Source of the DNA: Alphaproteobacteria bacterium
Lineage (GTDB): Bacteria; Pseudomonadota; Alphaproteobacteria; Micavibrionales; Micavibrionaceae
Reading direction: 5' to 3'
DNA length: 32,687 nt
Assembly (NCBI GenBank): GCA_016757515.1
Contig: JAERIN010000015.1
Span: 1-32,687 of the forward strand
Part shown: positions 7,897-17,121 of the stretch, piece after piece
Position numbering within the stretch: position 1 is the first letter of the stretch
How the letters are laid out: every line of letters begins with the position of its first letter
The notes under the pieces: generated by a model
Databases searched by the model: none
The model's input: only the letters and a program-made list of their open reading frames with translations
What the model was told of the DNA's origin: nothing
Program-made: the position numbers and the translations under genes

Positions 7897-7945
7897 AACC
7901 TTGGCCGGAGCCGCGCCGCGCAAGATGGCGTCGCTTTGGGGCCCC

Positions 7946-8104
7946 AAAATGGTATCTGCGCGGTGGCTCGGCGGTAGCGCAGCGGTATCACCGCGGTATT
8001 TGGGCGGTGGCACGGCAGTAGCACAGCGGTGGCTGGGCGGTGGCGCTTTTGGGCTGTTTTTCGCGCGGGAGGGCCTGCCTACGGGTTTGAGTATACACCA
8101 TTTT
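7946..8104 (+). repeat. 159-bp array element, copy A
   Basis: The ends are AAAATGGT (7946-7953) and its reverse complement ACCATTTT (8097-8104). After a 12-nt start come eight tandem 11-nt units at 7958-8045 that fit NNGCGGTRKCN: the GCGGT core is nearly fixed, while the two bases before it and the R, K and last N vary. A 59-nt tail (8046-8104) ends in TATACACCATTTT. Copy B (16945-17103, minus) has the same 12 + 88 + 59 layout. Because 11 is not a multiple of 3 this is not coding. On the opposite strand TATACT lies just inside the end. The left end overlaps a palindrome (TTTGGGGCCCCAAA, 7936-7949). It fills most of the 322-bp gap before alr. Confidence 0.85.
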
Positions 8105-8220
8105 TGGGCGCTGTGGGAAAATATTCGCTCTGCGGCGCGGCATTTTTCGGGCCCGCACAGCCCTGTCCTTCACAAGCCGGCGGCGTTGGCTGCTGGGGCA
8201 TAATGGGGTAAGGCTGGTCT

Positions 8221-12098: not shown

Positions 12099-13163
12099 CT
12101 ACTCAGTCAACCTCAAAACCCTGTCCCCAAGATCACCAAAAGCAGCGCTAAACCTATCTCTGCTTTTCAACATTGTATCCTCCGCGTGACCAAAAACTTT
12201 TCCGTGCTCTTTTATCTCTTGATCTGTCAGCGCAAAAATAGGTTTTGATATTTTTTGACTAATCGCTATTAGAGAATTAAAATCAGATATATGCGCAAGA
12301 TCGTATGGATTTAGGTCTGTTCCATCCAGGACTTCTCTAACCTTTTCAAGGCTTGCGACGCACCCTATTTCCTCTAGGGGGGGGACAAGATTCATATTTA
12401 TAGCATCTCTTATTTTATTAATCCATCCCTGGAAAGATTTTGCAGGTTTTTCATAGCGCGGCCTATATCTTTGCTGTACGGCACCAAGAAATTTGGGTTT
12501 ATTTTTTATAGAAAAAGAACTGTCGAATCCGTGACTCTCTCTGAAGGCATTAATCTCAGAATGCCATTTTATTATATTCTTTTTTAGAGAATTAACAGCC
12601 TGAAGACAAAAATAATCTGGAGAGGTCGGGACTATAAAATAATCGCTAGACATTAAAATGACCTGATTCAAGCCACCGACATTTGGGCTTAGATCATATA
12701 TAATATAATCATAATTCACACCAATAAGAGATAGCATTTTTGGCAGACTCCCGGGAATATTTCTTGTGGCTGGCACACCTGAAGCAATCTTAAGCGCAAC
12801 GCTAATTTGGGAATCAAGATCCGATGTATTTAAGTGTCCCGGCAACAAATAAAGATTATCGTTTTTTGTCTTGAACGGCTTCCCTCTATTGCCAACCATA
12901 TAATCTTCTGGTCGCACACCTTCAATAATTGAGGCAACTATTTCTTTTAATGTAAGGTTATCCCTGTTCTGATAAAATAGCTCCATATGGTCTCCGTCTA
13001 TAGCGTTGAATCCAAGAACAAGACCAGTAAGATTGCACTGAGAATCAAGATCAACAATAAGTACCTTTTTTCCTTTTTCGGCAAGAACCCAGCCAAGATT
13101 AAATGCGGTTGTTGTTTTGCTAACGCCGCCCTTGTGATTAAAAAGACATATAGATTTTGCCAT
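12099..13163 (-). CDS. Orphan ParA-family ATPase, AT-rich
   Basis: 354 residues, ATG 13163 after AGGAGGT. The deviant Walker A is KGGVSKTT (residues 11-18, with Ser where Gly is usual), and VLIVDLDSQCNLT and YDYIIYDLSPNVGG supply the Walker A' and B Asp residues. The C-terminal 130 residues are longer than in partition ParAs and carry a Lys/Arg-rich region (QQRYRPRYEKPAKSFQGW). No parB, parS-like repeat or replication gene is adjacent, so a partition role is unsupported. It begins 23 nt after the rpoD stop and ends 9-27 nt before the polyprenyl synthase start. Its codons are far more AT-rich than either neighbour. Both rpoD and this gene end in TAGTTTTTA. Confidence 0.85.
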   Translation of the reverse strand: MAKSICLFNHKGGVSKTTTAFNLGWVLAEKGKKVLIVDLDSQCNLTGLVLGFNAIDGDHMELFYQNRDNLTLKEIVASIIEGVRPEDYMVGNRGKPFKTKNDNLYLLPGHLNTSDLDSQISVALKIASGVPATRNIPGSLPKMLSLIGVNYDYIIYDLSPNVGGLNQVILMSSDYFIVPTSPDYFCLQAVNSLKKNIIKWHSEINAFRESHGFDSSFSIKNKPKFLGAVQQRYRPRYEKPAKSFQGWINKIRDAINMNLVPPLEEIGCVASLEKVREVLDGTDLNPYDLAHISDFNSLIAISQKISKPIFALTDQEIKEHGKVFGHAEDTMLKSRDRFSAAFGDLGDRVLRLTE

Positions 13164-16869: not shown

Positions 16870-16909
16870 GCGCCCCCGGGGCGCGGGGGGGAGGGGCCCC
16901 CGGATCTAT

Positions 16910-16929
16910 GCTGCGCCGCAGCTTTTTTT
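16910..16929 (+). terminator. Intrinsic terminator on the plus strand
   Basis: GCTGC-GCC-GCAGC (16910-16922, extendable by pairing G-C in the loop) followed by seven T. There is no plus-strand gene upstream for it to end (dnaG is on the other strand), so it may stop antisense transcription just before the promoter at 16931. Confidence 0.6.
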
Positions 16930-16930
16930 C

Positions 16931-16959
16931 TTGCCTCCAGAGGAAAAATGGTGTATAGT
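16931..16959 (+). promoter_or_regulatory. Sigma70-like promoter reading into repeat copy B
   Basis: TTGCCT (16931-16936), exactly 17 nt, TATAGT (16954-16959). The start would be near 16966, so the transcript would carry the complement of the 11-nt array and run toward holC. The -10 lies inside the element's terminal repeat region; copy A has TATACT at the same place but a poor -35. Confidence 0.5.
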
Positions 16960-17103
16960 CAAGACAGTAGCCGGACACCCGCGCCCAAAATCTACCGCAA
17001 TCGCGCCACCGCGCAGCCGCCGCACTGATACCGCCGCGCCACCGCTGAGACACCGCCCAGATACCGCTGTGATACCGCGTAGCCACCGCGCAGCCACCAT
17101 TTT
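16945..17103 (-). repeat. 159-bp array element, copy B
   Basis: Read on the minus strand it starts AAAATGGTGGCT (17103-17092), has eight 11-nt units at 17091-17004 fitting NNGCGGTRKCN, and a 59-nt tail ending TATACACCATTTT (to 16945). The inverted ends AAAATGGT/ACCATTTT are exact. The total length and every internal boundary match copy A. The first complete unit is identical in both copies, while the others differ mainly at the variable positions. In the tail about 60% of positions match, including the last 13. It lies in the 303-bp gap between divergent dnaG and holC, with dnaG downstream in element orientation. Confidence 0.85.
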
Positions 17104-17121
17104 GCCACCCCACCGGCCCGG

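Follow-up and report, generated by a model that had tools for sequence, protein, structure and literature searches.

Two elements in the window

The window, i.e., the whole stretch of 32,687 nucleotides under analysis, contains two copies (A and B) of one short element, located at 7946-8104 and 16945-17103 in opposite orientation and aligning without gaps over 159 nt. A sequence-only reading had described both as eight 11-nt units and a tail, bounded by an AAAATGGT end and an ACCATTTT end; this layout is confirmed, and these two copies do each precede an essential gene, with the same orientation relative to it. The main feature, which that reading had missed, is a predicted promoter with a PhaR-type operator on the opposite strand, directed into the array. 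Read on that strand, the former tail and ACCATTTT end correspond to a sigma70-type promoter (TTGACT/TTGCCC, 17-19 bp, TATACT), and the element follows the order palindrome, spacer, AAAATGGTG, TATACT, CA, leader, array and variant last unit, as follows:

8129 to 8143, minus strand: copy A palindrome ATGCCGCGCCGCAGA, PhaR-type operator with one mismatch to CTGCNNNGCAG
8114 to 8119, minus strand: copy A -35-like TTCCCA (weak), 18 bp from the -10
8090 to 8095, minus strand: copy A -10 hexamer TATACT; the preceding AAAATGGTG overlaps the ACCATTTT end
8042 to 8089, minus strand: copy A leader, 48 nt past the -10
7954 to 8041, minus strand: copy A array, eight 11-nt units, RCCGCNNNGMY in the RNA sense (NNGCGGTRKCN in the sense first read)
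7943 to 7953, minus strand: copy A variant last unit ACCATTTTGGG
16909 to 16923, plus strand: copy B palindrome TGCTGCGCCGCAGCT, PhaR-type operator, exact CTGCNNNGCAG
16931 to 16936, plus strand: copy B -35 TTGCCT, 17 bp from the -10
16954 to 16959, plus strand: copy B -10 TATAGT
16960 to 17007, plus strand: copy B leader, 48 nt past the -10
17008 to 17095, plus strand: copy B array, eight 11-nt units
17096 to 17106, plus strand: copy B variant last unit ACCATTTTGCC

In the RNA sense the unit RCCGC-NNN-GMY places a conserved block, GMYACCGC, every 11 nt, and the last unit of the array is the variant ACCATTTTGGY. The boundaries drawn at 159 nt have to be moved outward: the conserved unit runs further, the palindrome is found some 20-40 nt past the ACCATTTT end, and AAAATGGT and ACCATTTT are both internal to it. 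What had been taken for inverted ends are the promoter spacer, with AAAATGGTG just 5' of the -10, and the variant last unit, and transposon ends were not demonstrated. A coding array was ruled out, since the 11-nt unit shifts the frame, TGA and TAG are common, and no predicted gene overlaps any element. The window also holds, close to rpoD and dnaG, a gene for a ParA/MinD-like ATPase (12099-13163, minus strand; 354 aa) with no specific family assignment, which does not lie beside an element.

A multi-copy family restricted to one genome

The genome of origin is a draft of 1.75 Mb in 90 contigs, 98.9% complete, and about 37 intergenic loci of the element were found in it, although a pair at the ends of contigs C20 and C27 may be a single locus. 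A promoter-leader profile, made from sequence only, recovered 34 full copies at E<1e-13 plus pieces at contig ends. The tally of about 37 takes in two arrays with no recognisable promoter (C38:6336 and the degenerate C79:12409), and promoter and array co-occur in 35 of these loci. BLASTN with the element gave 46 hits in the same genome; the end motif TGASTATACACCATTTT matched 28 times, against 0 in reversed controls, and the array pattern 227 times, against 4 for the reversed control. TRF detects the arrays of copies A and B alike. The concern that the element might exist in these two copies only was dispelled by the many others with conserved ends; of what a profile search had been expected to return, numerous intergenic copies were indeed found, whereas a constant unit number and a shared gene placement were not.

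Outside this genome, the array pattern gave 0 hits in 103 other genomes of the family with two mismatches allowed, and BLASTN found no element homologue in 57 relatives. The promoter profile, run against 141 other genomes of the order, returned two weak hits, one in G054 that is not an element and one in G075 that is the PhaR-type promoter of a protein gene. In a wider contig scan, the 11-nt arrays among the matches listed were mostly homogeneous 11-nt microsatellites from unrelated taxa, and the matches in viral contigs were unrelated microsatellites and two chance promoter matches. As a separate observation, seven IMG/VR contigs (L164-L167 and L170-L172) share a near-identical 11-nt tandem array (GCGGTGGCGRA) with the same flanks and 4 to 9 units, its copy number differing among related phages. 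The elements are a real, unnamed, genome-specific, multi-copy family.

Unit number, register and selection

Eight units, proposed as an exact number, are usual in the family but not fixed: where the end motif is intact, the array counts 8 units in 24 copies, 7 in five, 5 in one and 10 in two, and nine units occur in one further non-redundant copy that has no end motif. As the unit number varies, neither is the total of 159 nt fixed. The copy on C26 shows a 22-bp expansion relative to that at C1:93849, and therefore unit number can change. The register, on the other hand, is strict: of 36 arrays, 32 have the end motif exactly in 11-nt phase, the other four have no such motif, and no array was seen out of phase. 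Arrays were gathered in 11-nt steps, and an indel would still have put the end motif out of phase.

Conservation was expressed as mean pairwise identity between copies. It reaches 93% for the unit core, 83% for the operator arms, 84% for the -10 and 80% for AAAATGGTG, and falls to 54% in the leader, which measures 37, 48-49, 57 or 59 nt, and to 45% in the spacer from palindrome to -10. The three spacer positions of the unit show 43.5% identity, against a baseline of 37.6% between non-homologous units, and homogenisation of spacers within single arrays was not seen. The copies are old, since their spacers are near saturation, and the contrast between these spacers and the core indicates purifying selection on the sequence of the latter. 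The constancy of the 11-nt spacing and the selection on the core fit the multimeric binding array that had been suggested earlier. The variation of the spacers beside so conserved a core amounts to a natural record of the requirements of whatever reads the motif. We rejected the idea that the units also serve as scattered genomic binding sites, the core motif occurring outside arrays at chance rate (0.337 vs 0.334 per kb).

A predicted PhaR operator at the promoter

Directly upstream of the promoter lies the palindrome TGCTGC-RSY-GCAGCA, represented by TGCTGCNNNGCAGCA, which contains the published PhaR operator CTGCNNNGCAG in exact form in 23 of 32 copies and with at most one mismatch in 31 of the 32. 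In 29 of 32 copies, 38-41 bp separate its centre from the -10, most often 40 bp. PhaR of R. sphaeroides binds CTGCNNNGCAG, and in S. meliloti PhaR represses the sRNA gene mmgR (PMC12542648). R. eutropha PhaR recognises YTKNTGCRNYGCANMAR, represses or activates, and has one site directly upstream of the phaP1 -35 (PMC12849132); the element palindrome holds CTGCNNNGCAG together with the TGCRNYGCA centre of this R. eutropha site, and by analogy the position of the operator fits the upstream repressor site of phaP1. By our tally, ATGCTGCRSYGCAGCA with at most one mismatch occurs at 23 loci genome-wide, 21 of them in elements; most of the best PhaR-type sites of this genome sit in these repeats and not at PHB genes.

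The genome encodes its own PhaR (C79:25238-25561), which scores above the Pfam cut-offs for PHB_acc_N (E 8.6e-25) and PHB_acc and under the curated cut-off for TIGR01848 (E 1.3e-30). This protein is diverged: it scores 106 bits, whereas nearly all relatives that possess a PhaR reach about 112-158. Otherwise constant positions of its DNA-binding domain are changed, from KKYANRRLYDTGRS to KKYPNRRLYDTGQS. Just before the phaR start stands TATGCTGCACCGTGCAGCATG, a variant with a 5-nt centre. Two phasins are also encoded, and the promoter of the one on C33 (TGTTGCACCGCCGCATTTTTTGCTTGACTCCC...TAGGTT) has palindrome, T-run and TTGACT laid out as in the elements; a hand count gives 40 bp from the centre of its palindrome to the -10. 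A single core motif in the leader of this phasin gene is suggestive only. With its PhaR, phasins and RpoD, the genome looks like that of a proteobacterium, probably an alphaproteobacterium.

Taken with the sequence of the operator, this arrangement makes the promoter probably that of a transcription unit under PhaR-operator control, and PhaR control of the elements is likely, with binding predicted. About half of the copies have a -35-like TTGACT or TTGCCC in the spacer, and about half lack a recognisable -35; in the latter, activation by PhaR might be needed. The palindrome as terminator of the upstream gene was rejected as a general reading, as many copies have no T-run and half adjoin a divergent gene.

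Several related sites and proteins were observed alongside. At C18:15565, a lone PhaR-type palindrome precedes a strong promoter (TTGACG / TATAAA) with no array. In two genomes of the same order (L209 and L210), PhaR-like palindromes, some of them doubled, lie in the promoter of a phasin-like gene downstream of the -10, a position unlike that in the genome studied here. The second phasin (C10:11897-12187) bears a lysine/alanine/proline-rich N-terminal stretch, AAKKPAAKKPATRKAAAKK, which we take to resemble that of DNA-binding phasins, proteins that tie granules to the nucleoid.

Neighbouring genes and duplication of copies

The copies are dispersed between many different genes. Contrary to the common orientation proposed from copies A and B, the neighbouring gene on the promoter side runs in the same direction as the element in 16 copies and is divergent in another 16. 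Such random orientation argues against cis-control of particular genes and fits action in trans.

Three pairs of copies illustrate how the family evolves. C3:6221 and C90:21248 have 282 bp in common at 97.9% identity between unrelated flanks; C6:632 and C44:9759 are alike only in the array and its end (107 bp, 96%), their promoters and leaders being unrelated; and C1:93849 shares the element plus about 50 nt upstream with a copy split over contigs C26 and C46. Thus copies duplicate, and arrays appear to be exchanged as cassettes. Neither common ends nor target-site duplications were seen in the duplicated pairs.

A predicted C-rich RNA and a possible part for Rho

On the RNA strand the array is C-rich, with a mean C/G of 2.0, which 0.7% of 88-nt windows reach, and a cytosine every 11 nt over 88 nt. 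The rut rule of RhoTermPredict asks for C/G above 1 across a 78-nt region, with a C at intervals of 11-13 nt (PMC6407284), and the array falls within this rule, which is permissive. Since it does so, and since no conserved intrinsic terminator was found at the element end, Rho may end the array transcripts and could be titrated. From the sequence, Rho would be the leading known candidate partner, at least for the transcript end. In C over G content and C spacing the elements resemble rut sites. They differ in having a conserved 8-nt core with invariant G and in forming an amplified repeat family, neither of which is known from natural rut sites. G is conserved in 90% at position 4 of the unit and in 96% at position 9, which points to a more specific reader.

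Discussion

We regard the family and its anatomy, the selection on the core, the operator match and the presence of PhaR and phasins in the genome as established at the level of sequence. In the explanation that we favour, the elements would be about 37 paralogous small non-coding transcription units scattered over intergenic regions. PhaR, the DNA-binding sensor of PHB (bioplastic) storage granules, would sit on the palindrome and make the promoter follow the PHB state of the cell, like phasin promoters and mmgR. The product would be a C-rich RNA with no conserved fold, on which an 8-nt motif recurs about eight times at even spacing; acting in trans, this RNA would capture an RNA-binding partner stoichiometrically, as a CsrB-like sponge. 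PhaR binding, transcription, the sponge role at the RNA level and the part of Rho are what we infer here. Because operator, -10 and array keep their order in every well-preserved copy, the array appears meant to be transcribed, and the many gene copies argue for dose; this kept order, the copy number and the random gene orientation therefore favour a trans-acting multivalent RNA. We put forward the whole reading, a PhaR-controlled array RNA acting in trans, only tentatively, somewhat short of an even chance, and its narrower part, that the array RNA is a sponge, seems possible but doubtful. Several observations stand against this reading. Rho needs no conserved G, yet the G residues are kept; the conserved AAAATGGTG, being upstream of the expected start, would be missing from the RNA; and the genome's own PhaR is diverged, about half of the copies have no recognisable -35, and no relative has the family.

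The same periodicity might be read on DNA, where a multimeric protein would fill the 8 x 11-bp duplex sites, as ParR does on parC, and organise the chromosome or shut the adjoining promoter. An exact 11-bp register near the helical turn, never out of phase, speaks for such an array, as does the conservation of the untranscribed promoter spacer AAAATGGTG, which mirrors the last unit ACCATTTT. ParR of plasmid R1 indeed uses 11-bp tandem direct repeats beside a promoter (PMC9426499), but parC occurs once per plasmid beside the par operon, whereas the elements are dispersed with no adjoining partition gene set. No binding protein was identified, single core motifs are not enriched elsewhere, and a pure scaffold would not need the promoter and operator that point into the array in every well-preserved copy; we consider this account rather unlikely. 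An old MITE-like or selfish interspersed repeat that captured a phasin-type promoter, with no function or an incidental one, would explain dispersed, genome-specific intergenic copies in random orientation, as well as recent duplications with unrelated flanks and the exchange of arrays. It is nevertheless unlikely, as core, operator and -10 have been held while spacers neared saturation, and the absence of common ends and target-site duplications in the duplicated pairs leaves the MITE-like nature, raised by the earlier reading, without demonstration.

A structured RNA, riboswitch-like or built of stem-loops, had been raised as well and appears very improbable. Single copies can fold well (best z -2.9), and the spacers of neighbouring units resemble each other less than after shuffling, which could reflect pairing. 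However, z-scores of single copies range from -2.9 to +2.5, no common fold beyond that of shuffled sequence was found across copies, and Rfam covariance models applied to 20 loci at gathering score matched only a tRNA and no element (no alpha-r8/MmgR). Full complementarity of adjacent spacers is 9.6%, against 9.1% after shuffling, and the adjacency effect can come from one ancestral array.

By kind, the cassettes would belong with interspersed repeats or multi-copy non-coding genes, with a promoter likely controlled by PhaR. Among phaP promoters, that on C33 matches them in operator, T-run, TTGACT and 40-bp spacing, but the elements carry an array and no coding sequence. CsrB/RsmZ-type sponge RNAs carry many copies of a short motif in one RNA, and the likeness lies in the proposed mode only: their motif is GGA, presented in stem-loops and encoded by one to three genes, whereas the elements have ACCGC, no stem-loops and about 37 genes. 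MmgR (alpha-r8) of Sinorhizobium meliloti is likewise an alphaproteobacterial non-coding RNA gene whose promoter has a PhaR (AniA) site (PMC12542648, PMC8401924), of which the elements carry a predicted counterpart. MmgR, however, is one sRNA of 77 nt that depends on Hfq, and the dyad in its promoter falls between the -35 and the -10; the elements are longer, exist in about 37 copies and contain a tandem array, and their palindrome precedes the -35. BOX elements of Streptococcus pneumoniae are also interspersed intergenic repeats with fixed flanks and a repeated inner module, some of them transcribed (PMC3049150), but boxB copies vary freely and their RNA is predicted to form stem-loops, in contrast to 11-nt units of near-constant number, unstructured, with a regulated promoter (by PhaR, to judge from its sequence) in each copy.

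A storage-regulator promoter amplified about 35-fold and joined to a periodic array would be an unusual route to non-coding RNA dose or to chromosome-wide protein arrays. Should the RNA act as a sponge, the array already supplies the bait for finding the partner. A PHB-responsive sponge network, in which PhaR would act on some 35 genes and their RNAs would titrate Rho or an unknown reader of GMYACCGC, is an improbable outcome in our estimate; if true, it would couple carbon storage to genome-wide RNA fate.
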